From Candidatus Saganbacteria bacterium (GTDB taxonomy: Bacteria; Margulisbacteria; WOR-1; O2-12-FULL-45-9; XYB2-FULL-48-7): a stretch of 37,722 nt of DNA. The stretch lies in contig JAFGHC010000014.1 in the NCBI GenBank assembly GCA_016939335.1, positions 1-37,722 of the forward strand, written 5' to 3'. Of the stretch, positions 3,673 through 36,048 are shown in pieces; within the stretch, counting starts at the first letter, position 1; each line of letters opens with the position of its first letter. The notes under the pieces are model-generated. The model was not told the DNA's origin and searched no databases. It saw only the letters and a program-made list of their open reading frames with translations. The translations under genes were made by a program, and so were the position numbers.

Positions 3673-6044
3673 CCACGGACATCGCCGAGATCAGAAAGCG
3701 GCTGAACGAGAACGCGGGCGATCCGGCGGCGCTGCGCGGCGCCGCCCAGTATTACCTCGGGGAGGCGAACTACAAGCAGGCGCAGACGACCTATCTCTCG
3801 GCATTTGAGGCCGCGCCGCGGCTCCTCCCGGCGATCCTGCTCGATTACGAGGCCAAGATCGGCGCCGACCCGGCCCGCCTCGGCCCGCGCCTCTCCCTGG
3901 CCGGGCTGCTCCTCTCGCTCGGCGAGACCGATGCCGCCTGCCTGGAGCTCGAGGAGCTGATCGACGAGAACCCGCAGAACGTCGAGGGTTATAATGTCCT
4001 CGGCCGCCTTTACGCCAGGCAGAACCGCGGCGGCGACGCCATCGCCCTGCTCGAGCGCTCGATCGCGGCCGGCGTGCGCGACGTCAACCTGACCGAGGCG
4101 CTGGCGGCCGCTTACCTGGGCAAGGGGCGCAGCGGCGACGCGATCAAGTTCTATGAGGAGATCCTGGCCCAGAAGCCGGGCGACAAGCAGACCCTGCGGA
4201 TCCTGGGCGAGCTCTACACGCGGGTCGAGGATTACAACCGGGCCGCCCGCAGCTACGCGGCCATGTTCTCCGACGATCCGGAGGTGGTGCGCGAAGTGAT
4301 CCAGCGGCTGGAAGAGCTGCTCAAACGCGTCGAAGGGAACATCGGGATCCGCGAGCTGCTGGCCGATATTTATATGAAAGTGCTCGATCCCGAGGCCGCG
4401 GTCGAAAAACTGCGCCAGATCCTGCGGCTCGAGTCAGGCAAGCTGGGCGAGACGATCGTCAAGCTCAAAGGGGTCCTGAAAAATTATCCCAACCATCCGG
4501 CCGCCAGCCTGGCGCTGGCCGAAGCGCTCTACCGCCAGGGCTCCTACAGCGAAGCGGTCGAGCTCTACCAGCAGCTGCTCAAGGTCAAGCCGGAGCTGGT
4601 CGATGAATTGATCGCCGGCTACCGCGCCGTTCTGGCGCTCTGCCCCGAACAGGTGCTGGCCCGCGCTTACCTGGGGGAGGCGCTGCTGGTCAAGAACCAG
4701 CTGCTGGAGGCGCTGGAGGAATTTGGCCAGATGGTCGAGGACGACCCGAGCGTGGCCGACCTGGTGATCAAAAAGTGCCGCGAGCTACTGCGCGGCCAGC
4801 CGCAGCTCTTGCAGGCGCATGTCATTCTCGGCCGGGCTTACCTGGCCAAGGGCGATTACCAGCGGGCGGCGATCGAGGGGGAAGGGGCGCTCGCCGTCGA
4901 CAAAAACCTGACCGCGGCTTACCTCTTGCTGGGCGAGGCTTACACCCGCCTCAACCTGCAGCGCAAGGCGGCGCAGACGCTGCACACGGCGTTGCTGCTT
5001 GACCCTTACAACCCGCAGGCCCACGAACGCTACCGGGCGGTCAAACTCAAGGAACTCGAACAGGAGAGCGCCGCGCTCAAGCAGCGCCTGCAGGAGGACC
5101 AGTGGCAGCTTTCGCTCCATCTTGACCTGGCCAGGCTTTACTTTGATCAGGGCGACCGCGAGGCGGCGGTGCGCGAACTGCAGCTGGCGCAGCGGGACCA
5201 GGCCAGGGCGCCGGCGGCTTTCTTGCTGCTCGGCGACGTTTACCGGAGCGAGGGGCGCTTTGACCTGGCGGCGGCGCAGTACAATCGCGCGCTGGAAGCG
5301 GCGGTCAGCCCCGAACAGACCCGGCTGCTCCGTTTCAACCTCGGCACCACTTACGAGGCGCAGGGGGACGTCCGCAAGGCGGTCAAGATCTACGAAACGA
5401 TTATTCAGGAAGACATCGATTTCGGCGGGCTGAAAAAACGGATCGCCCAATTGAAGACGACCAGTCTTTTGAGCATCCGCAACCGGACGCTGGCGGCGGT
5501 GATCGTCGAGTTCGGCAAAAAAGAGCTTGTCGCCGTCTGGGGGCGCGATCTGCGCCTGGCCGGCCGGGCGCGGCGGGAAGAGATGAACGTTTCGTTCGGC
5601 CAGGAGCACAACCAGGAGGGTTTCAACTACTTTATGAAAGGGATGTGGCCGGCGGCGGAAGAGGAGTTTACGCTGGCGGTCGGCCTCGACCGCCAATTCG
5701 GCAGCGCCCTCAACAACCTCGGCGTGACGCTGGCCAGGCAGGGGAGGCTGGAGGAGGCGCGGGGCCGCCTCCAGGAAGCGGTCCAGGTCGATCCCGCCTC
5801 GGCAGTTTTTTATAACAATCTGGGCGTCGTCTATTTATTGCTGGGGCGCGGCGACCTGGCTTTCACGGCGCTGGAAAAAAGCGCGGCGCTCGATCCCGAA
5901 GCCGCCCATCTCTGCCTTAATCTCGGTGATCTCTATTACGCCAGGAAAGAGGCGCGGAAAGCGATCGAACAATACCGCCGCGTCGGCGATTACGACACGC
6001 TGGCCGACCTGGCCCGGCGCCGCCTTTTTTGCAAAGTCCCCTGA
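3669..6044 (+). CDS. tetratricopeptide repeat protein
   Basis: Many TPR signatures (e.g. ALNNLGVTLARQGRLEEARGRLQEAVQVDP); TTG start overlapping the upstream stop. Confidence 0.88.
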   Translation: MTTDIAEIRKRLNENAGDPAALRGAAQYYLGEANYKQAQTTYLSAFEAAPRLLPAILLDYEAKIGADPARLGPRLSLAGLLLSLGETDAACLELEELIDENPQNVEGYNVLGRLYARQNRGGDAIALLERSIAAGVRDVNLTEALAAAYLGKGRSGDAIKFYEEILAQKPGDKQTLRILGELYTRVEDYNRAARSYAAMFSDDPEVVREVIQRLEELLKRVEGNIGIRELLADIYMKVLDPEAAVEKLRQILRLESGKLGETIVKLKGVLKNYPNHPAASLALAEALYRQGSYSEAVELYQQLLKVKPELVDELIAGYRAVLALCPEQVLARAYLGEALLVKNQLLEALEEFGQMVEDDPSVADLVIKKCRELLRGQPQLLQAHVILGRAYLAKGDYQRAAIEGEGALAVDKNLTAAYLLLGEAYTRLNLQRKAAQTLHTALLLDPYNPQAHERYRAVKLKELEQESAALKQRLQEDQWQLSLHLDLARLYFDQGDREAAVRELQLAQRDQARAPAAFLLLGDVYRSEGRFDLAAAQYNRALEAAVSPEQTRLLRFNLGTTYEAQGDVRKAVKIYETIIQEDIDFGGLKKRIAQLKTTSLLSIRNRTLAAVIVEFGKKELVAVWGRDLRLAGRARREEMNVSFGQEHNQEGFNYFMKGMWPAAEEEFTLAVGLDRQFGSALNNLGVTLARQGRLEEARGRLQEAVQVDPASAVFYNNLGVVYLLLGRGDLAFTALEKSAALDPEAAHLCLNLGDLYYARKEARKAIEQYRRVGDYDTLADLARRRLFCKVP

Positions 6045-8326
6045 TGCCGCCGCGCGCACTGCTGGTCGGCTGCCTGCTGGTTGTTTTCTGCGCCCCGCTT
6101 CTGGCCGACGAGCCGTCGATCACCGTCGAAGTCAAGGCGGAGAGCCTGAAATACCATGAAAGCGGATTGCTGGAAGCCGCCGGCTCGGTCGAGGTCGAAC
6201 TCAAAGGGCTGACGATCCGCTCCGACCGCCTGCTGATGGACCCGGCCACCAATATCGCGACCGCCGAGGGGCACGTCATGGTGGCCGGCCGCGACGGCAA
6301 CGCCGCCGCCTCTGAGTTGATCTATGACGCCGATAAGGAAAGCTCGCGGTTTGCCGGTTATCGTGCCAGGCTGGTCCCCGGCGGCGAGTTCAAGGGGCCG
6401 CTCTTTCTCGAGGCGCGGAGCGTCGAGGCGCAGGAGAACAAACTCTCGGGCCGGGCGGCCGAAATGACGACCTGCGGCCGGCCGGCCTCCCACTACGTAT
6501 TACTGGCCGACCGGTTCAGCTATTTCCCGGATGACCATATGGAAGCGCACAACCTGACGCTGGTGGTCGGCGAGCTGCCTGTTTGCTGGCTGCCCTATTA
6601 TTACTACGACCTGCACGATCAGCGGCAGAGGAACTGGACATTCGGCCGCAACGACGTGGAAGGCAATTATTTGAAGACCGCCTGGTCCTACTCCCCCGGC
6701 ACGCTGCTGCTCGATTTTATGGAGAAGAAGGGGACCGGTTACGGCACAGCGACCAACTACACCCTGGGGGCGCTGGGCCTTGGCAGCCTCTATCTTTATC
6801 ACCTGGACGAGCGCGATACCGGCCTCTCCGACTGGGTCGCCAGGATCAGCCAGGAGAAAAAGCTTGACCAGGAAACTACGCTTAAGCTCGACTCGGGCTA
6901 CGCCTCGATCTACCAGCTGCCGGGCGGCCGCCTCGACCAGACGACGTTCGGCCTCGGGCTGAACCACAGCGGGGCGGCCAGCTGGGGCGGCAAGTTCGAT
7001 CTGCTTGACGACCGGGCCGCGGCTTACGGCCGCTACACCATGCAGCTTAACTACTCGGCGGGGCGGCTGGCGGCGAATTACAGCAATAATTATGAATTCG
7101 CCAGGAACGATCCGCGCTGGCTGCGCGACGCCCAGCGCATCGGTCTCAACGCCGGGCTGACCAGCTCGGTCAATTTCAGCGCGGCCGCCGATTACTACCA
7201 CAGCAGCCCCGCCGCCGGCGATCCCGGCCGGGAGAAGGTCGAGCCGGTGATCGAGCTGACCGGGCGCGAACCGAACTATTCCTGGCGCTGCACCGAGAAC
7301 TGGTTCATCGACCTGCGCCAGGGGCTTTACCCGGGGCTGGCCAGCTACGAGTATGTGGAGCGGCAGCCGGAGATCGAGCTGACGCCGCAGGCGCTTGATC
7401 TCAAGCTGTTCACCCTGCAGCCGGTTTTGGGCTACGGCTATTACCGCGAGGTCAAGAACGTTCCTGCCCTGGGCGGCAGCGGCTACCGCGTTTTCAGCGC
7501 CCAGCGGACGCGGGCGACGCTGAACGCTTCCAGAAGCATCAACGTGGGCCTCGGCTCGGTGCTGCTGCTCGGCGCCGGGCTTGACCAATTCCTCTACAGC
7601 CCGGGCGACCAGCTCTACGCCCTGCGCGAGAGCGCCGGATTGCAGACCGACCTCAACTCCTGCTTCCGCAACGAGCTTGCTGTCCGCCAGGCCTATACCG
7701 ACGGGAACACGCCGTTCTTTTTCGACCGGCTCGGCACCGTCTATCATGACATCACGGAGAAAGCGACTTTATATCATCAGAACAAGTTCAGCTGGTCGGT
7801 CAACGGCGGCCACAACTGGCAGACGAACAAATATTACGACGTGATGACCGACCTGAAGCTGGCGCCGGACCCGCGCTGGCAGCTCAACCTGACGACCGGC
7901 TGGGACCTCGAGAACCGGCTTTACAAGAATTTAGTGACCGGCGTGCGCTGCGCGCCGAACGGCGCTTATGCCGCCGACCTCTCGCTTAACCAGGACCTCA
8001 ACGGCGCCGGCCTGCAGACCGCCAGCGTGCTCCACGACCTTTATCTGCTGCAGGGGGAGGACAACGAGCTTCATTTCCGCTTCAGCCAGGTCTTTGACGC
8101 GGCGACCAAAGAGTTCAAGGTGCGTGATATAATGCTGGTGAAGCAGCTGCACTGCTGGGAGTTGACTTTTTCCTATTCCGATTACACCAGGGACTTCAGC
8201 TTTGTCTTCTCGCTCAAGGCGCTGCCCGGCCAGCCGGCCGGTTTCTCCAGCGGGCGCGGCTTCTATTTCCAGGGCTTCGACCAGGGCTTGCAGCAGCTAA
8301 ATTCGGGGGATATCAGGAGATATTAA
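6044..8326 (+). CDS. lptD: LPS-assembly protein LptD/OstA-like
   Basis: Signal peptide MPPRALLVGCLLVVFCAPLLADE, OstA-like beta domain (ITVEVKAESLKYHESGLLEAAGSVEVELKG), TTCGRPASHYVLLADRFSYFPDDHMEAHN, then beta-barrel-like region; ATG overlaps the upstream TGA. Confidence 0.8.
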   Translation: MPPRALLVGCLLVVFCAPLLADEPSITVEVKAESLKYHESGLLEAAGSVEVELKGLTIRSDRLLMDPATNIATAEGHVMVAGRDGNAAASELIYDADKESSRFAGYRARLVPGGEFKGPLFLEARSVEAQENKLSGRAAEMTTCGRPASHYVLLADRFSYFPDDHMEAHNLTLVVGELPVCWLPYYYYDLHDQRQRNWTFGRNDVEGNYLKTAWSYSPGTLLLDFMEKKGTGYGTATNYTLGALGLGSLYLYHLDERDTGLSDWVARISQEKKLDQETTLKLDSGYASIYQLPGGRLDQTTFGLGLNHSGAASWGGKFDLLDDRAAAYGRYTMQLNYSAGRLAANYSNNYEFARNDPRWLRDAQRIGLNAGLTSSVNFSAAADYYHSSPAAGDPGREKVEPVIELTGREPNYSWRCTENWFIDLRQGLYPGLASYEYVERQPEIELTPQALDLKLFTLQPVLGYGYYREVKNVPALGGSGYRVFSAQRTRATLNASRSINVGLGSVLLLGAGLDQFLYSPGDQLYALRESAGLQTDLNSCFRNELAVRQAYTDGNTPFFFDRLGTVYHDITEKATLYHQNKFSWSVNGGHNWQTNKYYDVMTDLKLAPDPRWQLNLTTGWDLENRLYKNLVTGVRCAPNGAYAADLSLNQDLNGAGLQTASVLHDLYLLQGEDNELHFRFSQVFDAATKEFKVRDIMLVKQLHCWELTFSYSDYTRDFSFVFSLKALPGQPAGFSSGRGFYFQGFDQGLQQLNSGDIRRY

Positions 8327-8991
8327 TGGCAAGATCTCTGATAGTCGTTAGTTGTTTGTTGTTAGTTGTTAGTTTAGTCGGCTGCGCCAAGACCGTCACG
8401 AACGTCAACTTCGGCTCAACGCTGACGGTGACCGTAACGCTGCGCGGCAGCGCCGACGTGACGAACAACCGCTACTTCCTGGTCTTGAGCTCCAGCCCCA
8501 CTTTTAAGGTGCCGCTGCCGCCGCCCAACAATTATGTCGGCGGCATCACCTATGAATTCCTTGAGCCGGACGGCACGCTTCCTAAAGACGGAATTACTTC
8601 GCTTGAGGCCTATTACACCAATTATTTTTCCACCTGGTCGGGTTATGTCGTGCTTAAAAGCGGCGGTTACTTTATCACTCCCGGGCCTTTCAGCCAGGGG
8701 GTGGCGATCAGCCAGCCCTTGCTCTCGCTTTACACTCCGGGCAGCAATAAGTTGAGCTTTAATTTCTCCTTGAGCCAGCTGTTCGCCTCGGGCGTGCCGG
8801 CGACCGCTTACTTTGATCTTGTCGCGGTCCCCTGGCCGGCGGCCGGCTACAAATACGCGGCCGATCATCTTGAGTCGACCAATGCTTATGTTTCGACTTT
8901 GAGCGGTTCGCTGCAGACGGTGACCGACCCGGCCGATACGTCGGTCGACCCGGCGTGCGATATCCTGACCTGTGAGGTGACAGTGCAGTAG
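8326..8991 (+). CDS. predicted lipoprotein, unknown function
   Basis: N-terminus MARSLIVVSCLLLVVSLVGC with lipobox LVGC. Confidence 0.75.
   Translation: MARSLIVVSCLLLVVSLVGCAKTVTNVNFGSTLTVTVTLRGSADVTNNRYFLVLSSSPTFKVPLPPPNNYVGGITYEFLEPDGTLPKDGITSLEAYYTNYFSTWSGYVVLKSGGYFITPGPFSQGVAISQPLLSLYTPGSNKLSFNFSLSQLFASGVPATAYFDLVAVPWPAAGYKYAADHLESTNAYVSTLSGSLQTVTDPADTSVDPACDILTCEVTVQ
8347..8374 (+). repeat. GTTAGTT heptamer array (4 units) coding a signal-peptide core
   Basis: GTTAGTT GTTTGTT GTTAGTT GTTAGTT, in frame. Confidence 0.85.
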
Positions 8992-9010: not shown

Positions 9011-9153
9011 TTAAATAACAAATAACAAGCATCAAACAACAAACAAATTCTAAATCACAATGGCCAAAGGGGATAGGCTTTGCCGGTTTTGAACATTAGG
9101 ATTTCGGTAATTCGGTATTGTTTGCTATTTGTAATTTGTTATTTGTGATTTTA
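9011..9153. repeat. inverted A+T-rich repeat (AATAACA/AAACAAC words)
   Basis: taaataacaaataacaagcatcaaacaacaaacaaattctaaatcacaa ... attgtttgctatttgtaatttgttatttgtgatttt. Confidence 0.65.
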
Positions 9154-9194
9154 ATGTAAAATATATTCTGGTAATCTGAAATCTGGCAATAAGT

Positions 9195-10595
9195 ATGAAT
9201 ATTATACTATCGATAATTTCAGGCATACTGCTGGCCCTGTCTTTCCCCAAATTCTCGCTCTGGCCGCTGGCCTGGGTGGCACTGGTGCCGTTTTTTTACG
9301 CTCTTAATAGAACTGAAACGGGCAAGCAGGCCCTGCTCTGCGGCCTCTGGTTCGGCCTCGTCTTTTTCGGGATAAACCTTTTCTGGGTGACTTCACTTTC
9401 CCGGTTCGCCGGCTGGTGGGCGGTGACGGGGTGGGCGAGTTTGGCCATTTTTCAAACGTTGTTCGTCCTTATTCTTGTCCTGATTTTTAGAGTTATCAGT
9501 TATAAGTTATCAGTTATCAGTTACCGCCCGCTTATCTTTTCTTTGCTCTGGATAGCGGTAGAATGGCTGCGCGCGTCCGGGCCGTTCGGCGTGACGGGGG
9601 GCGGCGTCGGCTACTCGCAGGCCCATTTCCTCCCGCTGGTCCAGATCGCTTCTTTTGCCCAGGTTTACGGCGTCAGCTTCATTGTCGTTTTCTTCAACGC
9701 GTCGCTGGCTGAAGTAGCGGCGACCTTCAGGTCGCCATTTCGGAATGGCGGTCTAAAGACCGCCGCTACATCTTTGTTTTGCGCCGTATTATTAATTGTT
9801 TTAGCGATAGCTTACGGGACTACCACAATTCGTCATTCGTCATTCGTCATTCGGAATTTCCCCAAGCTTGCTCTCATCCAGCCCAACGTCGACCAGTTCG
9901 ACCGAATGAATCCGCGGCTGATCGTTCAGGTTTACGGCCTGCATGAGGGGATGACCCGGCAGGCCGCCGCGGCGGGCAAGCCGGAGATCATCGTCTGGCC
10001 GGAAACGGCGGTTTTCACTTATTTACTTCATGACGCGGCTTTTTTGCCGCGCGTACAAAAGCTGGCCCGGGAGGTGAATGCCTGGCTGCTCATCGGCACG
10101 CCCGATTTCGACGGGCGGGGCGGGGCGTTCAATTCTCTGGTCTCGCTGTCGCCCTCCGGCGAGATCGTTTCCCTGTACAATAAAGAACGGCTGGTGCCGT
10201 TCGGCGAATACCTCCCCTTCAGATCGATCTTGTACCCGTTGCTCAAGGGGACCGGTTATTTCGGTTCGGTCTTCAGTCCCGACCCGCGGCCCGGAATGAT
10301 CCTGGCCGGGCGCAGCAGGATCGCCGCGGCGATCTGCTTTGAATCGACTTTTCCCGATCTGGTCAGGCAGCGCGCCGGCCAGGGGGCCGACTTTATCCTG
10401 ACGGTCACCAACGACGCCTGGTTCGCTGATTCAGCCGCACCCTATCAGCATTTCGAGGCGGGGATCTTCCGGGCGGTGGAGAACCGCAAATATTTCGTGC
10501 AGGTCGGCAACACCGGCTTTTCGGGCGTGATCGATCCGTACGGGCGGATACTGCGCAAAAGTGAATTGAACAGGCGCGAAACCGTCTATTTTTGA
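9195..10595 (+). CDS. lnt: apolipoprotein N-acyltransferase
   Basis: Multiple TM segments plus C-terminal nitrilase domain (LALIQPNVDQF, VWPETAV, NKERLVPFGEYLPF, AAICFESTFPDLVR, TNDAWFADSAAPYQHFEAGIFRAVENRKYFVQVGNTGFSGVIDPYGR). Confidence 0.92.
   Translation: MNIILSIISGILLALSFPKFSLWPLAWVALVPFFYALNRTETGKQALLCGLWFGLVFFGINLFWVTSLSRFAGWWAVTGWASLAIFQTLFVLILVLIFRVISYKLSVISYRPLIFSLLWIAVEWLRASGPFGVTGGGVGYSQAHFLPLVQIASFAQVYGVSFIVVFFNASLAEVAATFRSPFRNGGLKTAATSLFCAVLLIVLAIAYGTTTIRHSSFVIRNFPKLALIQPNVDQFDRMNPRLIVQVYGLHEGMTRQAAAAGKPEIIVWPETAVFTYLLHDAAFLPRVQKLAREVNAWLLIGTPDFDGRGGAFNSLVSLSPSGEIVSLYNKERLVPFGEYLPFRSILYPLLKGTGYFGSVFSPDPRPGMILAGRSRIAAAICFESTFPDLVRQRAGQGADFILTVTNDAWFADSAAPYQHFEAGIFRAVENRKYFVQVGNTGFSGVIDPYGRILRKSELNRRETVYF
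9492..9526 (+). repeat. GTTATCA heptamer array (5 units) inside lnt
   Basis: GTTATCA GTTATAA GTTATCA GTTATCA GTTACCG; encodes VISYKLSVISYR. Confidence 0.85.
9714..9777. repeat. GTAGCGGCG...CGCCGCTAC palindromic element inside lnt
   Basis: Outer stem gtagcggcg/cgccgctac with inner hairpins gcgacc-ttca-ggtcgc, gccatt-tcgg-aatggc, ggcggtc-taaa-gaccgcc. Confidence 0.85.
9828..9855 (+). repeat. ATTCGTC heptamer array (4 units) inside lnt
   Basis: ATTCGTC x3 + ATTCGGA; encodes IRHSSFVIR. Confidence 0.85.
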
Positions 10596-13011: not shown

Positions 13012-13749
13012 TTACTTACGCAACTCCGAAATCAATCGCAGGCCCTTAAGCGTTAGCTTATCGTCTATTATATCAACAATGCTGGTGTACTTACAAATTA
13101 GCTTGGCCAGCCCGCCCGTAGCGATTACCTTCACTTTTGACTTTTGACTTTTGACTTTTGACTTTATTCTTCCGATCATTCCCTCAACCAACGCGACATA
13201 GCCGAAGACCAGCCCGCTGCGCATCGCCTCGACCGTATCTTTGCCGATGACACTGGGGGGGGCTTTGACCTCGATCCTCGGCAGCTTGGCGGTCCGCTCG
13301 TGCAGCGCGTCGCGCGCCAGCAGCAGTCCCGGGGAGATCGCGCCGCCCAGGTACTCGCCGCGCGCGGTGACGACGTCAAACGTGGTAGCGGTGCCAAAGT
13401 CGACGATGATCGCCGGCCCGCCGTAGAGCTTGTGAGCGGCCAGCGCGTCGACCAGCCGGTCGGCGCCGACCTCGCCCGGCCTCTTGAGTTTGACCGCGAT
13501 CACCGGGATATTCCTCCAGTCGACAAAATGAGGTTTAAGGCCGAAGCGCCGATGGGCTTCCCCTGCCAGGCGGCGGTTGAGGCCGGGAACGACGCTCGAA
13601 ATGATCACCTGATCGACCCGGCCGTTGAGCGGCGGGAATTTGAAGCCAGCGGTCGGGACCCGGAGTTCCCTGATCAGCTTCTTCTTTTCGAAAAGCCCGA
13701 AACTTACGGCGGTATTGCCCGCGTCAATGGTTAGCGTTCTGGCGGCCAT
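13012..13749 (-). CDS. coaX: type III pantothenate kinase
   Basis: LTIDAGNTAVSFGLF, GADRLVDALAAHKLYGGPAIIVDFGTATTFDVV, GGAISPGLLLARDAL. Confidence 0.93.
   Translation of the reverse strand: MAARTLTIDAGNTAVSFGLFEKKKLIRELRVPTAGFKFPPLNGRVDQVIISSVVPGLNRRLAGEAHRRFGLKPHFVDWRNIPVIAVKLKRPGEVGADRLVDALAAHKLYGGPAIIVDFGTATTFDVVTARGEYLGGAISPGLLLARDALHERTAKLPRIEVKAPPSVIGKDTVEAMRSGLVFGYVALVEGMIGRIKSKVKSQKSKVKVIATGGLAKLICKYTSIVDIIDDKLTLKGLRLISELRK
13133..13166 (-). repeat. ACTTTTG heptamer array (4 units + partial) inside coaX
   Basis: acttttgacttttgacttttgacttttgacttta; encodes IKSKVKSQKSKVK on the minus strand. Confidence 0.88.
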
Positions 13750-15999: not shown

Positions 16000-16061
16000 T
16001 AAACAGAAAAGAGCCCGAAGAGGATACTGCCGCTCCGTTATTGCGTATGCAAGGAGGGCCG

Positions 16062-18296
16062 ATGAGAAGAACGATCACCTTTGCCCTGCCGTTGATAGTC
16101 ATCGTTTCGCTGGTCATTATAGTTTTCGGCCTCGTCCAGGTCAGGTTCGAGGAAGAGCGGCTGATGGAAGACCTGAAGCGGAAGGCCGAAACGGTCACCG
16201 AAAGCGTCAGCCTGGCGGCCGCCAATGTCCTGCAGCACAAGGACCTGGCCGGCGCCCGGCGCCTCGTCACCCGCTTCCAGAACAAGAAGAACATCCAGGG
16301 GTGCGCCCTCTACGACAAAGAGGGGCGGCTGGTCGCCATTACCGAGCGGTTCAAGGGGTGGCGCGACGGCGACCAGCAATATTACCGGGGCGTCCTTGCC
16401 AGCGGCCAGCCGAAAGACAAGCTCGGCAAATTCCGCAAGAGCTACGTTTACAGCCGGATCATCCCGGTCGAGGACAGCCGGGGCCGCCCGCTCGGCATGG
16501 CGGAGATGATCTATGACACCTCTTACGTCTTTGCCCGCCTGGCCGATTTCTGGCGCAATATTATCATCACTCTGGTCCTGCTCAACCTGGCCCTGCTGGC
16601 GCTGGCCGCCCTCATCCTGCGCTGGCTGTTCCTGCCGATCGAGAAGCTGACCCTCTGGTTCAAACATTTCCAGCGGGGGGAAACAGGCAAGCCGCACGGG
16701 ATCAAGGGCGGGGGAGAGATCGGCGCGCTGGCCAGCGAGGTCGAGCAGGCCGCCCTCAGTCTCCAGGTCGCCCGCAAGACCGTGGCGGAAGAAGCGGCGG
16801 CCAAACTGGAGAAGGAAGATATCTGGATTGAGAGCCGCCTGCGCGACCTGGTGCGCGCCCGGCTCGGCAGCGGCGATAGTTCGATCATCGTCGCCTCGAA
16901 CCGCGAGCCGTTCATCCACATGCTTGATGAAACGACCGGGCAGGTCCGCTGGGCCCAGCCGGCCAGCGGGCTGGTGGCGGCGATCGACCCGATCATGCGC
17001 GCCTGCGGCGGCACCTGGGTCGCCCACGGCAGCGGCAGCGGCGACCGGCAGACGGTCAACGCCAAGGACAAGCTCGGGGTGCCGCCCGACGACCCCCGTT
17101 ACATCCTCAAACGCGTCTGGCTGGCGCCCGAGGAGGCGGACGGCTTCTACCTCGGTTTCTCCAACGAGGGGCTCTGGCCGCTCTGCCACATCACCTACAC
17201 CCGGCCGATCTTCCGGGAGGCCGACTGGCGGATGTACAAGGCGGTCAACCAGAAATTTGCTGACAGCATCCTGGAAGAACTGCCGGCCGAGAACGCCTTT
17301 GTCTTCATCCAGGATTACCACTTCACCTTGCTTGGCCGGATGATAAAAGAGAAACGGCCTGACGCCACCGTGGCGCTCTTCTGGCATATACCGTGGCCGA
17401 ACCATGAGGTCTTCTCCATCTGCCCCTACCAGGTCGAGATCCTTGACGGCATGCTCGGCTGCGACCTGATCGGCTTTCACGTGCAGTATCACTGCAACAA
17501 TTTCCTGGAGACGGCCAACCGCCTGCTCGAGTGCCGCATCGACACCGAGAAGAACAGCGTCATCCGCTCGAGCAAGGAAACACTGGTCCGCCCGTTCCCG
17601 ATCAGCATCGCCGGCGTCAGCGGGCCGCTGACCGCCCGGGAGAGCGCGGAGACTGAAAGGGTCAGGCAGCAGTACGGCCTGGCCGGCAAGATCGTCGCCG
17701 TCGGGGCGGACCGGATCGATTACACCAAGGGGATAGCCGAGCGGATCCTGGCCGTCGACCGCTTCCTGGAGAAATATCCGGAATATCTCGGGAAATTCGT
17801 CTACGTCCAGCTGGCCGTTCCCAGCCGCGCCAAGATCAAGCGCTACAGCGAACTGCTGGACGAGATCGACCAGCTGGTGGAAAAGAAGAACGCCAAGTAC
17901 GCAACGGACAACTGGCGGCCGATCATCTATCTCAAAAAGTACTTCACCCCCGATGACCTCAAGCCCTTCTACCGCGCCGGCGACCTCTGTCTGGTCAGCT
18001 CGCTCCACGACGGCATGAACCTGGTGGCCAAGGAGTATGTGGCGGCGCGGAGCGACCTCGCGGGCGCCCTGATCCTGTCGAAGTTCACCGGCGCCGCCCG
18101 GGAGCTGAACGACGCGGTGCAGATCAATCCCTATTCCATAGAGGAGTTCGCCGACGCGATCAAGTATGCCTGCGAACTGCCGCCCGAAGAAAAGAGGAAA
18201 CGGATGGAGAACCTGCGCCGGCAGATCGAACGCAATAATGTGTATAAATGGGCCGGCAGCATCATTAACGACCTGGCCGGATTGAAAAAAGAGTGA
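16062..18296 (+). CDS. otsA: membrane-anchored sensor/HAMP - trehalose-6-phosphate synthase (GT20) fusion
   Basis: N-terminal TM + about 130-aa extracytoplasmic region + TM + HAMP-like linker; GT20 motifs FWHIPWPNHEVF, DRIDYTKGI, SSLHDGMNLVAKEYVAAR; SD AAGGAGG before the ATG. Confidence 0.88.
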   Translation: MRRTITFALPLIVIVSLVIIVFGLVQVRFEEERLMEDLKRKAETVTESVSLAAANVLQHKDLAGARRLVTRFQNKKNIQGCALYDKEGRLVAITERFKGWRDGDQQYYRGVLASGQPKDKLGKFRKSYVYSRIIPVEDSRGRPLGMAEMIYDTSYVFARLADFWRNIIITLVLLNLALLALAALILRWLFLPIEKLTLWFKHFQRGETGKPHGIKGGGEIGALASEVEQAALSLQVARKTVAEEAAAKLEKEDIWIESRLRDLVRARLGSGDSSIIVASNREPFIHMLDETTGQVRWAQPASGLVAAIDPIMRACGGTWVAHGSGSGDRQTVNAKDKLGVPPDDPRYILKRVWLAPEEADGFYLGFSNEGLWPLCHITYTRPIFREADWRMYKAVNQKFADSILEELPAENAFVFIQDYHFTLLGRMIKEKRPDATVALFWHIPWPNHEVFSICPYQVEILDGMLGCDLIGFHVQYHCNNFLETANRLLECRIDTEKNSVIRSSKETLVRPFPISIAGVSGPLTARESAETERVRQQYGLAGKIVAVGADRIDYTKGIAERILAVDRFLEKYPEYLGKFVYVQLAVPSRAKIKRYSELLDEIDQLVEKKNAKYATDNWRPIIYLKKYFTPDDLKPFYRAGDLCLVSSLHDGMNLVAKEYVAARSDLAGALILSKFTGAARELNDAVQINPYSIEEFADAIKYACELPPEEKRKRMENLRRQIERNNVYKWAGSIINDLAGLKKE

Positions 18297-23692: not shown

Positions 23693-24139
23693 ATGGAGGA
23701 GCGTAATGCGGCAGGCGGTCGCGATGCGCGTTTCGTAGTGCGGGCGGCGAAGGGCGTGATAAAAAGCTATGAAGACCTGGATGTCTATATTAATAGCTAT
23801 AAGGCCATGTTAATGGTCTTTAGGAATATACTGCCTTTACTGCCGAAAGAAGAAAAATACGACCTGGTGGACCAACTGAGGCGGTCGAGCAAAGCAATTC
23901 CCAGATTAATTGCCGAAGGTTATTCAAAAAGACATCAAGTTAGAGGTTTCCAGAAATATCTCGATGACGCTCATGCTGAATCGAATGAAACGTTGGTTTC
24001 GCTTAAACAAGCTGGAGACTTGTATTTATATGGTTGTAAGCCAGATGGTTTTACGGAACTATTGGACCTTTACGATAAAATAAGCCGACAGTTGTTTAAT
24101 TTGGCCGAGGCTTGGACTAATAGGAGCAAGCACGCATGA
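23693..24139 (+). CDS. four helix bundle protein (23S rRNA IVP/S23 family)
   Basis: IKSYEDLDVYINSYKAMLMVF...LPKEEKYDLVDQLRRSSKAIPRLIAEGYSKR pattern; the family core could start at GTG 23756. Confidence 0.85.
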   Translation: MEERNAAGGRDARFVVRAAKGVIKSYEDLDVYINSYKAMLMVFRNILPLLPKEEKYDLVDQLRRSSKAIPRLIAEGYSKRHQVRGFQKYLDDAHAESNETLVSLKQAGDLYLYGCKPDGFTELLDLYDKISRQLFNLAEAWTNRSKHA

Positions 24140-26581: not shown

Positions 26582-26686
26582 TAATTAACAATTACTCAAT
26601 GAACAATGAACAACTTGGTGTCGCTTCGCGACTTAAATAATTATATTCCTTGTTGTTCATTGATGTCATTGTTAATTGTTAATTTT
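26582..26686. repeat. inverted AACAATG-type repeat between dapB and dut
   Basis: attaacaattactcaatgaacaatgaacaacttgg ... ccttgttgttcattgatgtcattgttaattgttaat. Confidence 0.75.
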
Positions 26687-31464: not shown

Positions 31465-34400
31465 TTAAAAACTGCAGCCGCAGCCGTGGGCGCGGGGTTT
31501 GGGCTGGTCCGGAACGATTGGCGCCGCCGGAACCGCCGCCACGACGTCAGACCAATCACTTTCGTGGGCCGGGCTCATTGTGTCATAGGCTTTGACTTTA
31601 CATATATAGATATGCCCGTTAGTTAATCCTGTCACCAGATACGAAGTCCGATCACCAACCTCTTTTTCCACCCAATTGCCGCCGATCGTCGAATCCTGGC
31701 AGGCGGTTTTATAACCGCCGAGGTCGTTGAACGGGGAGCCGTCAGCGTGAATGGCCGGGGCCTGCCAGCTAAGCGGGATCTGCCCGTTCTGCCCGCTGAC
31801 CGCTTTGAGCTTGGAGGGGGCGGACGGTTTAACGCTGATATCCGAAGGGGAGGCAGCGGCGAGCTCCGACCAATCACCGACGTTGACGGGATCGGCATTG
31901 TCAAAGGCCTGTACCTTGAATTCGTAAACGCGGCCATTGAGCAGGCCGGGGATAGTTATTGCGGTCGTCGCGCCGGAGACAAATTCCGTCCAGCCGCCGC
32001 CGGCGGTCGCGTCGCGGTAGGCGACATTATAACCGGCCAGGCCGGAGAGCGGCCCGTTATCAGCGTCGGCGGCCGGCGCGGTCCATGATAATGAGACCTG
32101 CCGGTCCTGATCGTTAAGCGCCGTCAGATTGGCCGGGCTGGCCGGGGCAATGTCGTCGCTGACGGGAATTGAAAAAAACGAACCGGGGGCGCTGGCCGGA
32201 AGAAAGGTGACGTTGCCGCTGCTATCGCTCCCCTCCAGGTAATATTCCACTCCGGCTAAAGTGACCGCGGCTGCCGGGACCGCTCCGGAATATATGTTGC
32301 CGGAGCGGGACGCGGTAAGGTCGGCCGTCGCCCACTGGGGAGAGCCTTTGATCCGGTAGTGGAGGGCAACATTCTTAATAGCGACGTTGTCCGTCGCAGT
32401 AAGAACGATCGGGAGATCTTTTCTTAGATAGGCGCCGGTGAGCGGGCTGTGGCCGATTGCCGGAGGGACATTGTCGCTGACCGACACATTGTAAACACTG
32501 GTCGGCGCGCCGGCCGGCGCGGCCGCAACATTGCTGCTCCGGTCATTGGCCTGAATGTAATACTGGACCCCGGCCATGGTCACGGAGCCGCCCGGGATAG
32601 TTGCCGTGTAAGTCCCGTTATTATTGGTCAGGGGGATGACTTGCCAGGGGCCGGCGCCGGTCGTCCGGAAATAAAGCGTGGCGGCCGGGCTCTCGCCGGA
32701 ATTGTCGGTGATCCGAGCGGTTATGTTAAAAGCTTGTCCTTCATTGACAGAAACAACAGGAGCATGAATTATGGCAGGCGCGACGTTATCTGTTATAGAA
32801 AGGTTGAAAGCTTTGCCTGGTGAACCGAGGGGAAGAACAGCGGGATTGAGGCTTGAATCGTGCGCGACCAGGTAATAATTTATATTGCCGCCCGCGGGGG
32901 CTGAAGCAGGGATCGACCCTTGCCAAATCTTGCCGCCGGAATTGTTCAGCTGGCTGAACTGGAACGTGCTGGCGCCGGCGTTTTTATAAAACAGGCTGAC
33001 CAGGAGCACGGCAGAATTATCGGCGACTTCGGCGGCGATCGGGATCGGGCTTCCCGGATCAGCGGCGGCCACCGGCGCGTGGGAAATGACCGGCGGGGTC
33101 ACATCTGTATGATAATTTCCGGTATGACGGGCGTCATGCTGGAACTGCGGCCATTCAGCTTTGGTGCCGGCCGCACCCAGATTCCAGATATAGATCTTAT
33201 CGCTGGTGGCAGCGATCAACTCCAGTTTCCCGTCCCGGTCGATATCAACTGCGGAGAGCGAATGAGAATTGGCGTCTGGCAGGAATTTCGGGAACCCTGA
33301 TAATACGTCTGTTCTGGCGCTCCAGGCCCAAACATTGCCGTCCCCCGCATCTAAAATATCCGGCAGTCCGTCGCCATTGGCGTCAACGATGACCGGGGGC
33401 GGCCACGTGTTATTCAGCTTGATCTCTTGGAGCGGGACCGGCCAGTTGGCCGGCGCCGTCCCGTCGTGATGAAAGCCGTACAGTTTGTCGATGTTTGAAT
33501 GGGAAAAAATCTCCAGGTCACCGTCATTGTCCAGATCGCCGATCGCGGGGGGTGAGACCGCGTAGTCAGTCGCCTGCTGGGGCCAGCGGGGAAGAGAGAC
33601 GCCGTTTTTATCCCAGATATGCATGACCGCGTTGACGCAGTTCGCGATTATTTCGTGATTACCGTCGTTGTTGACGTCGGCAATCGCGGTCTGGACTAAT
33701 TTAAGCCCGGCGCCGTTGTAAGGTATCGGCTGCGGCCAAGGCGGCAAGAGGCTGCCGTTATCTTTTACCGCAGCGACCTGACCGTTGTTAAAACCGACGA
33801 CGATCTCTTCTTTTCCGTCGTTGTCAAGATCGCCAACCGAAGGGGTAGCGGCAGACTCCGCTGTCACCAGCGGCTTTGGCCAGGGCGGCAATAATTGGCC
33901 GTTAGAGCCCCAAATATATATATTCGGGGCAGCGGGATCATGATAGTCTTTGATGGTAGAAGCGATAATCTCCAAATAACCATCGCGGTTAATATCGCTT
34001 ATCACCGGAGATGAGAGACAGTGAGTGCCCGTATTGGCCGACCAGACCGGAGCGCCTTTATGATCCAGAGCGTAAAGGTAATTGTCTTCCTCCCAATGAT
34101 AAGAACCGACCAGGATCTCCAGGAAGCCGTCGCGGTTAATGTCCGCCAAAGAAGGAGTGGTGGCGATCCTTTTGGCGATATTTTTGTGCCACGACCGGGT
34201 GCCGTCGGCCTTATAAACGGAAAGATTGCCGCTGAAATCGCCGACCACGATCTCATCCTGACCATCGTTATCGATATCGCCGATGACCGGGCCGACCGAG
34301 TTTTCGGAGTAGAGCTTGCCCGGCGGCGTGACCGGCCAGCCGGGGCGATAGTCCTTTTCGAGCACGATCAGCACTTCTTCGGCGATGCTCTCATTAACTG

Positions 34401-36048
34401 TAATTCTAAGTTTATATTGCCCGCCCGGCAGGCCGGAGATCAGTGACTGGTCCAGGGTCGCCAGGGCCCCGTTACTGACCGGGGCGGCTGAATCTTTAAT
34501 GGTTGTCCAGCTTGACGGGTAAGTCCCAAGGCCATATTCAACTTTGTATTTTTGGAAGCCATCGCCGCCGGCAGTCCCGGTGACGGAGAAAGCGCCGGTC
34601 ACGATCTCCCCGCTTTTGGGAAAAGTTATCTCCAGATCAGGCACCCGGTCGATCGTCAGGGCCTTGAGCGCGTTTATCCGGCCGCTGCCGAGATATTGCT
34701 GGCCTGGCAGGACGAAGACCGGGTCGGCTGAAGAACGAATAATATGATAAACGGCGCTGTTCGTCAGCGCAGGATTATGGGAGACAATTAGCCCGGCCAG
34801 TCCGGCAACATAAGGGGCGGCGGAAGAGGTCCCGTCACTTGGGCCGTAGCTGTCTCCGAGAATGGTCGTGTAGAGATTTTTCCCGGGAGCGGCGACCGCG
34901 ATCTTGGCGCCGGAATTCGAAGAGGCTTCAGGCCCCCAGACGGCCTTCTTATCGTTCTCGTCGGTCGCGGCGACCGCCAGCACATTTTCATAAGCGGCGG
35001 GATAAAGGACAAAATTTTTGCCGTCATTTCCCGCGCTGGCGATCAGGAGGCAGCCGCGGCGATAAGCATAATTTAAAGCGTCCTCGAGCAGGGCCGAGGG
35101 AACGTAGCTGCCCCAGCTCATATTTATGACGCGGGCGCCGTTATCGGCCGCGTACTTGATCGCGTCCGCGTTGTCGGAATCAAGGAAAGAAGCTCCGTCT
35201 GGCGTCGAGAAACCCGTTCTTAACGGCATGATTTTGTTATGCCAGCTAATTCCGGATATGCCCTGATTATTGTTTGGCACTCCGGCGATGAGGCCGGCAA
35301 CCGTGGTGCCGTGGTTGGCAAAATCCATCGGGTCGTTATCTCTTGGCCCGGGATCCTCTCCGGGCGTGACCTGGGCGGGGTCCGCGCTGACAAAATCCCA
35401 GCCGCGCACATCATCTGGATAGCCATTATTATCGTCATCCACGCCGTTATTGGCGATCTCGTCAGGATTGGTCCAGATATTGGCGGCCAGGTCGGGGTGA
35501 TTGTAATAGACACCGGTATCAAGCACGGCGGCCACAATGTCAGGGTCGCCCAGCTCGATCTCCCACGCCGCCGGCGCCTGGACCTTGGCCAGCGCCCACT
35601 GCTGGGAGAAGAGGGGATCATTGGGCGCGGCCGCGGCAGCGTGGCGGATATAATTCGGCTCCGCATATTCGATGTTCGGATCGCTCTTGAATTCTTTGAT
35701 AACTGCTTGCGGATCAGCGCCCGGGGGCAGCTTGAGCTTATAAATATTATCGAGGTTGGGGAGCGGGCCCCGCTGTTTTCTCCGGTCATTTTTGATCTCT
35801 TTCGGCGCTCCCCGGAAAAGCCGCGCCATTTCGGGGATGCGGTGACGGGTAAAAAGCGCGTTGACCGTGCCGGCGGAGGTGTTCAGTTGCGCGGCTTGGA
35901 CGCTGACCGGTGATTTGAACTTGACGATGAGCTCGTCCGCTGCGCAGTCCTGGTCCGGCGGTTTTTTGCCGGAGTTATTCCCCCGGCCCGGCGAACCGGC
36001 CGCGGAGTAAAAACTGCCGCTGGAGCCGCAGATCAGATCGTCGCTCAT
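31465..36048 (-). CDS. S8 subtilisin-like protease with FG-GAP/VCBS propeller and FN3-like repeats
   Basis: Catalytic triad VAAVLDTGVYYNHPDLA, NHGTTVAGLIAG, GTSSAAPYVAGLAG; multiple DxDxDG blades (DIDNDGQDEIVVGDFSGNL etc.); FN3-like ANLTALNDQDRQVSLSWTAP. Confidence 0.93.
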   Translation of the reverse strand: MSDDLICGSSGSFYSAAGSPGRGNNSGKKPPDQDCAADELIVKFKSPVSVQAAQLNTSAGTVNALFTRHRIPEMARLFRGAPKEIKNDRRKQRGPLPNLDNIYKLKLPPGADPQAVIKEFKSDPNIEYAEPNYIRHAAAAAPNDPLFSQQWALAKVQAPAAWEIELGDPDIVAAVLDTGVYYNHPDLAANIWTNPDEIANNGVDDDNNGYPDDVRGWDFVSADPAQVTPGEDPGPRDNDPMDFANHGTTVAGLIAGVPNNNQGISGISWHNKIMPLRTGFSTPDGASFLDSDNADAIKYAADNGARVINMSWGSYVPSALLEDALNYAYRRGCLLIASAGNDGKNFVLYPAAYENVLAVAATDENDKKAVWGPEASSNSGAKIAVAAPGKNLYTTILGDSYGPSDGTSSAAPYVAGLAGLIVSHNPALTNSAVYHIIRSSADPVFVLPGQQYLGSGRINALKALTIDRVPDLEITFPKSGEIVTGAFSVTGTAGGDGFQKYKVEYGLGTYPSSWTTIKDSAAPVSNGALATLDQSLISGLPGGQYKLRITVNESIAEEVLIVLEKDYRPGWPVTPPGKLYSENSVGPVIGDIDNDGQDEIVVGDFSGNLSVYKADGTRSWHKNIAKRIATTPSLADINRDGFLEILVGSYHWEEDNYLYALDHKGAPVWSANTGTHCLSSPVISDINRDGYLEIIASTIKDYHDPAAPNIYIWGSNGQLLPPWPKPLVTAESAATPSVGDLDNDGKEEIVVGFNNGQVAAVKDNGSLLPPWPQPIPYNGAGLKLVQTAIADVNNDGNHEIIANCVNAVMHIWDKNGVSLPRWPQQATDYAVSPPAIGDLDNDGDLEIFSHSNIDKLYGFHHDGTAPANWPVPLQEIKLNNTWPPPVIVDANGDGLPDILDAGDGNVWAWSARTDVLSGFPKFLPDANSHSLSAVDIDRDGKLELIAATSDKIYIWNLGAAGTKAEWPQFQHDARHTGNYHTDVTPPVISHAPVAAADPGSPIPIAAEVADNSAVLLVSLFYKNAGASTFQFSQLNNSGGKIWQGSIPASAPAGGNINYYLVAHDSSLNPAVLPLGSPGKAFNLSITDNVAPAIIHAPVVSVNEGQAFNITARITDNSGESPAATLYFRTTGAGPWQVIPLTNNNGTYTATIPGGSVTMAGVQYYIQANDRSSNVAAAPAGAPTSVYNVSVSDNVPPAIGHSPLTGAYLRKDLPIVLTATDNVAIKNVALHYRIKGSPQWATADLTASRSGNIYSGAVPAAAVTLAGVEYYLEGSDSSGNVTFLPASAPGSFFSIPVSDDIAPASPANLTALNDQDRQVSLSWTAPAADADNGPLSGLAGYNVAYRDATAGGGWTEFVSGATTAITIPGLLNGRVYEFKVQAFDNADPVNVGDWSELAAASPSDISVKPSAPSKLKAVSGQNGQIPLSWQAPAIHADGSPFNDLGGYKTACQDSTIGGNWVEKEVGDRTSYLVTGLTNGHIYICKVKAYDTMSPAHESDWSDVVAAVPAAPIVPDQPKPRAHGCGCSF

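Follow-up and report, generated by a model that had tools for sequence, protein, structure and literature searches.

Dispersed heptamer arrays in a Margulisbacteria genome as a probable source of signal-peptide cores

A predicted lipoprotein of Candidatus Saganbacteria carries a signal peptide whose hydrophobic core is encoded by tandem 7-bp units. This array is quite probably one copy of a dispersed population of heptamer repeats, in which stop-free, T-rich arrays supply or replace signal-peptide cores. Arrays of this population lie in frame within genes, occupy conserved protein sites with units that differ between lineages, are enriched in signal peptides and recurrently avoid stop codons. 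The analysis covers a window, meaning the whole stretch of 37,722 nucleotides in which the lipoprotein lies, and the window's own genome (G000, Margulisbacteria, 1.53 Mb), of which about 1.5 Mb was analysed as stretches, together with its relatives. Genes in G000 were called by a simple home-made hexamer-score script, which leaves start codons uncertain, and signal peptides by hydropathy rules rather than SignalP; all are computational predictions.

The start of the lipoprotein frame overlaps the stop of the ORF upstream (TAATG). That upstream ORF (6029-8326), which gave no match in a Pfam search, may be LptD-like, judging by its context and motifs. The signal peptide is laid out as MARS-LIVVSCLLLVVS-LVGC, a positive n-region followed by a hydrophobic core and a lipobox with its Cys, and G19 and C20 are invariant among 26 aligned orthologues. 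Structure prediction gives a beta-sandwich with an N-terminal helix spanning residues 2-17 (pLDDT 91), and a fold search returned nothing at E<=0.001, the hits being weak C2-like beta-sandwiches. The array that the earlier note had described at 8347-8374 is confirmed within the 221-aa frame: four clean units, GTTAGTT GTTTGTT GTTAGTT GTTAGTT, fill these 28 bp. So is the single T at 8357, said there to remove a stop codon, which makes this one of 17 such arrays in G000. The tract terminates just 5' of 8377-8379, which would be the next in-frame TAG if the array continued. Only a T-rich arm is present here, and its A-rich partner arm is absent. Six 14-mer matches with at most two mismatches were found, against 0.05 expected from dinucleotide shuffles, and 4 of the 6 belong to the lipoprotein array itself. 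Table 1 collects the coordinates.

Table 1. Features of the window, numbered from its first nucleotide (TRF, Tandem Repeats Finder).
Feature	Position	Strand	Evidence or remark
Lipoprotein ORF, 221 aa	8326..8991	+	begins MARSLIVVSCLLLVVSLVGC; no Pfam match
Predicted lipoprotein signal peptide, MARSLIVVSCLLLVVSLVGC	8326..8385	+	lipobox LVGC; Cys20 = 8383-8385
Heptamer array coding for the hydrophobic core	8342..8374	+	TRF period 7, 4.7 copies, 88% match
T replacing A	8357..8357	+	codon 8356-8358 reads TTG (Leu), not TAG
Intergenic hairpin element: A-rich heptamer arm, loop, T-rich heptamer arm	9013..9155	.	
lnt, apolipoprotein N-acyltransferase	9195..10595	+	Pfam LNT_N 5e-32, CN_hydrolase 8e-29
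AGTTATC array, in frame in lnt (RVISYKLSVISY)	9491..9523	+	TRF
ATTCGTC array, in frame in lnt (IRHSSFVIR)	9828..9853	+	TRF
AAAAGTC array, in frame in coaX (KSKVKSQKSKVK)	13133..13165	-	TRF
23S-rRNA-IVP family gene	23771..24094	+	PF05635 5.4e-17; no array <=300 bp
Second hairpin heptamer element	26597..26684	.	TRF and arm pairing

In a surface-protein gene, each 7-bp copy gained or lost near the 5' end would shift the frame, and changes in copy number could in principle toggle the lipoprotein on and off. Such a phase-variable contingency locus is scarcely conceivable here, however, and was rejected as a candidate: in place of a long pure tract there are about 4.7 copies at 88% match with a variant mid-array unit, the matched frames of the orthologues contain no stops, and coding arrays remain near 31 bp.

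Many further period-7 arrays were found in the window by Tandem Repeats Finder, and RNA folding of the intergenic hairpin element beside lnt gives -33.2 kcal/mol (z -2.1). Two long frames also drew attention in their own right: a 1527-aa ORF on the minus strand (31465-36048) reads like a subtilisin-type secreted protease bearing repeat domains, and a 751-aa ORF on the plus strand (16041-18296) resembles a trehalose-6-phosphate synthase that has a membrane sensor part at its N-terminus.

Across G000, period-7 arrays dominate the tandem repeats, with 427 TRF rows in 127 unit families. Coding DNA has 95.7 lag-7 segments per Mb and intergenic DNA 556; the corresponding densities for lags 5, 8, 10 and 11 are 2-6 and 0-104 per Mb. 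About 94 AT-rich arrays lie in frame inside genes, and the coding arrays yield recurrent peptides such as KSKVKSQ (from AAAAGTC), FVIRHSS (ATTCGTC) and KFEIRNS (AAATTCG). The unit families are lineage-specific and multicopy. The 14-mer AAAAGTCAAAAGTC, for instance, has 25 copies in G000, 9 in G004 (another genus of the same family) and 14 in G005, and none in most other relatives.

This distribution bears on whether the arrays have merely grown in place by polymerase slippage that favours heptamers, at sites that happen to tolerate them. Heptamers are over-represented in many bacterial genomes, for which a polymerase explanation has been proposed (PMC4692102, PMC4679880), and permissive sites do recur. 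Local growth alone is nonetheless unlikely, since it leaves shared words unexplained: one 14-mer at many unlinked sites makes independent slippage hard to accept, and the paired arms described below match one another. The arrays thus appear to have spread by copying rather than by arising locally each time.

Heptamer repeats have settled inside essential enzymes as well as export tags. A comparison of G000 with G004 over 348 reciprocal-best pairs places many in-gene arrays at the matching protein site in both genomes, often with different units and at similar length. The clearest such site is a loop of the pantothenate kinase CoaX, between helix EGMI.RIK and strand VIATGG, which is occupied by heptamers in roughly 13 of 30 genomes and by ordinary sequence in the remainder. 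The units mostly differ (AAAAGTC, AAATTCG, CCGTTAC, CACAGCT, AAACTTC, AAATCCC and others), and the tracts are clear or moderate, the weakest (G003, G005, G023) scoring 7-9. At the lnt sites, heptamers are present in G000, G004, G003 and partly G005, with units in G004 and G003 that differ from those of G000; most other genomes have none there. Two single cases may be recorded beside these. The gene at C19:51468 in G000 and its G004 orthologue (C1:310872-311903) share an identical 31-bp signal-peptide array, unlike most sites, and in G010 and G017 the alignments of phosphoglycerate mutase relatives break close to the array site, which is a hint only.

Such replacement at fixed sites also bears on a function at the DNA or RNA level, in which the arrays would be binding sites, for example in the translation control suggested for TAACTGA repeats, and the peptide secondary. 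Many arrays lie near gene starts, one signal-peptide array is nearly identical as DNA in G000 and G004, and RNA binding has been proposed for repeats upstream of starts in another system (MacGregor, PMC4679880). Yet units are replaced wholesale at fixed sites, arrays sit deep inside coaX and lnt, and within arrays synonymous identity exceeds the background by no more than a modest margin (0.669 vs 0.570, n=151), all of which makes this reading very unlikely.

Signal peptides are a preferred location of the arrays. In G000, a lag-7 score of at least 9 was reached by 12 of 214 N-terminal hydrophobic segments (taken from proteins with few TM segments), compared with 1 of 600 internal TM segments (p 9e-7) and 4 of 600 soluble segments (p 5e-5). 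Among the AT-rich coding arrays, 25 of 94 start within the first 30 codons, where about 8 would be expected. Roughly a dozen unrelated predicted secreted proteins of G000 have heptamer-built signal peptides, and several of them show a plausible cleavage site directly after the array; ordinary signal peptides form the majority in this genome. G004 gives a similar picture, with scores of at least 10 in 7 of 83 signal-peptide genes versus 4 of 403 internal segments.

The orthologues of the lipoprotein, present in 54 of 95 relatives searched, extend this pattern. Over the 57 nt up to the lipobox Cys, 29 of them taken together show a lag-7 excess over a synonymous-codon null that preserves both the protein sequence and the base composition (Fisher 2.5e-12, or 1.3e-10 when the window copy is left out), although combined values of this kind are optimistic because the orthologues are related and not independent. 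Lag 14, a multiple of 7, shows an excess as well (5.6e-8), the signal at lags 4 and 8 is marginal, and lags 5, 10, 11, 13, 16 and 17, like the mature windows, are null. The unrelated gene FlgI behaves likewise across 30 orthologues (lag 7, Fisher 3.1e-8, equally optimistic; lags 8 and 10 null), and within the window's family its signal peptide is heptamer-built in G000 and ordinary in G004, G003 and G008.

Could T-rich codons such as GTT, TTG and TTA make hydrophobic cores look repetitive by chance? Signal-peptide DNA is indeed T-rich, and several lipoprotein orthologues individually lack a lag-7 excess. Composition of this kind is nevertheless extremely unlikely to account for the arrays: the synonymous nulls are still beaten at lag 7, lags 5, 10, 11 and 13 are null, and equally hydrophobic internal TM segments show almost no lag-7 arrays. 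With either codon model, none of 1000 synonymous recodings reached the lag-7 score of the lipoprotein array, which is 17. Chance and codon composition were set aside on the synonymous nulls and control lags.

The earlier note had asked whether the array is lineage-specific among orthologues. The units in the signal-peptide arrays vary among lineages and the lag-7 excess is evident, but the G004 orthologue retains the peptide VVSCLLLVVSL at weaker periodicity (p 0.02-0.06), which places the peptide as it now stands under constraint at the protein level, however it arose. Other repeats also occur at these N-termini. The signal peptides of the G008 and G003 lipoprotein orthologues (L008, L009) are built on a period-8 word, GTTTGTTG, rather than on a heptamer. 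FlgI of G009 (L270) and the G000 genes at C6:14115 and C42:37262 carry a different palindromic repeat of the type CCCTCTCCC...GGGAGAGGG, reading PSPRGRG, in frame near the N-terminus and 5' of a T-rich heptamer signal peptide.

Stop codons are avoided repeatedly. The unit contains no stop in the sense reading in 76 of the 94 AT-rich arrays within genes, versus 41 if read antisense; 17 of the remaining 18, the lipoprotein array included, lose the stop by substitution, much of which is survivorship because an open frame cannot hold a stop. The stop-removing change is the sole deviation in 7 of these 17. Mismatches within would-be stop codons number 24 against 10.1 expected, a count inflated by two of the 17 arrays (C25:5006, C13:35892) that are composite with poor consensus.

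Relatives within the class show how widely the T variant has been used. Among the matches examined, which are not every match, GTTAGTT arrays with the T are sense-coding in 9 of 16 cases and A-only arrays in 1 of 20 (p 9e-4), and 8 of the 9 sense-coding arrays lie at N-termini, most of them encoding VVSCLLLV or a near match. Signal peptides of unrelated loci in several genera (G013, G014, G017, G018, G023, G029) repeat this peptide, each time from a GTTAGTT-type array in a different protein. The earlier note counted the same T variant outside genes against its reading. In G000 the two non-coding GTTAGTTGTTAGTT arrays have A only; in relatives, 4 of 20 intergenic arrays examined carry T, so a repeat with the T already present may have been captured. 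The T8357 codon is common to G004, which argues against a recent private change.

A mechanism can be proposed from these patterns. Because 7 is coprime with 3, every frame of one strand reads the identical cyclic heptapeptide. A stop-free T-rich unit gives a Val/Leu/Phe/Ile/Cys stretch in any phase, and signal peptides tolerate such sequence. A T-rich array in the 5' end of a gene, in its stop-free variant, could then supply or replace the hydrophobic core of a Sec or lipoprotein signal peptide. From its sequence, the array peptide of the lipoprotein probably works as an export signal. The protein would be exported through Sec, lipidated at Cys20 by Lgt, cut by LspA and acylated by Lnt, the final enzyme in lipoprotein maturation; Lgt (C30:24269) and LspA (C30:23845) are encoded in G000 and Lnt in the window. 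The suggestion that a simple-sequence repeat was co-opted as an export signal is thus supported at the level of prediction, and it generalises to the orthologues, to FlgI and to about a dozen secreted proteins.

The hairpin pattern, established in G000 alone, adds a further dimension. All 27 of 27 neighbouring array pairs (<=150 bp apart) run A-rich then T-rich, distant pairs are mixed, and paired arms share longer inverted words than mismatched arms do; in G004, with two pairs only, one runs AT and one TA. In about ten secreted proteins the signal peptide resembles such an element, the A-rich arm encoding an n-region that is polar and charged and the T-rich arm encoding the core. Inverted-repeat scores of at least 13 occur in 10 of 289 signal-peptide genes versus 1 of 300 cytoplasmic N-termini (p 0.005), one or two of the 10 being unconvincing as heptamer elements. 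Certain synonymous recodings of single cases approach their scores, and the same hairpin test on FlgI signal peptides was non-significant (Fisher 0.10).

Genes of the 23S rRNA IVP family (PF05635) are a weak lead to how the arrays spread. G000 has 14 copies, of which 7 have an array within 300 bp, compared with 21.5% of genes (p 0.017), and the arrays beside them are A-rich upstream and T-rich downstream in 13 of 14 (p 9e-4), though neither p-value is strict because several thresholds were tried informally. Five of the 14 genes (C4:11555, C36:14403, C33:145, C8:3361, C28:13379) are flanked on both sides, by A-rich heptamers upstream and T-rich heptamers downstream. Among relatives the association is weaker: an array accompanies 14 of 29 IVP genes, and polarity is mixed. 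It is possible, if doubtful, that hairpin elements are ready-made signal peptides that spread as small derivatives of IVP elements, with unit families displacing one another genome-wide. Being inverted repeats, they would read A-rich arm then T-rich arm in either insertion orientation. The A-rich arm would give an n-region rich in Lys, Asn, Gln and Ser and the T-rich arm a core rich in Phe, Val, Ile, Leu and Cys, while parent elements would carry the IVP four-helix-bundle gene in the loop. Displacement among unit families would let protein sites persist while the repeat word changes.

If the main reading is true, non-coding satellite DNA has repeatedly given rise to export signals within a bacterial class, with the repeat word still legible. 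The system would be a natural experiment on the origin and turnover of signal peptides, on which insertions can be accommodated by essential enzymes, and on the spread and mutual replacement of short repeats within a genome. Annotators would be warned that such N-termini and loops are repeat-derived.

Several known repeats invite comparison. The short tandemly repeated repetitive (STRR) heptamers of cyanobacteria are tandem 7-bp units with many unlinked copies and several unit families. G000 resembles them in all of these respects; here, by contrast, many arrays lie in frame within signal peptides and conserved genes, one unit gives way to another between genera at an unchanged protein site, and the arms in G000 are often hairpin-paired. 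Rickettsia palindromic elements are inserted in frame in protein genes and tolerated at permissive sites. They and MITEs share inverted-repeat arms with the G000 hairpins (27/27 pairs), but the Rickettsia elements are not heptamer-built and, to our knowledge, are not known as a source of signal peptides.

Heptamer repeats as such are already known from Cyanobacteria, Xanthomonas and Beggiatoaceae (PMC4692102, PMC4679880), and our searches of the open-licence literature returned no account of signal peptides built from heptamers or of one unit replacing another at a fixed protein site. TAACTGA direct repeats are dispersed heptamers of Beggiatoaceae, Cyanobacteria and Bacteroidetes; inside ORFs they tend toward protein ends, and their stop-containing reading limits the positions tolerated (MacGregor 2015, PMC4679880). 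Unlike the arrays here, they belong to a single unit family and lie mainly between genes or in hypothetical proteins, and the sections consulted describe neither a signal-peptide role nor unit switching (PMC4679880). The GGGNATC heptamers of Xanthomonas and Nostoc are genome-wide with about four units preferred, but they are G-rich, over-represented in non-coding DNA and discussed as G-quadruplexes (PMC4692102). PARCEL elements, palindromic tandem coding repeats that are dispersed and linked to membrane-targeted proteins, differ in forming 25-residue repeat domains rather than short signal-peptide or loop tracts (PMC2996958). Finally, the 23S rRNA intervening sequence with its S23/IVP ORF is a selfish element encoding a four-helix bundle (for example PMC4990558). 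The G000 copies lie outside rRNA and their arms are heptamer arrays that pair in only 5 of 14 cases, yet some IVP genes of G000 likewise stand between complementary arms.
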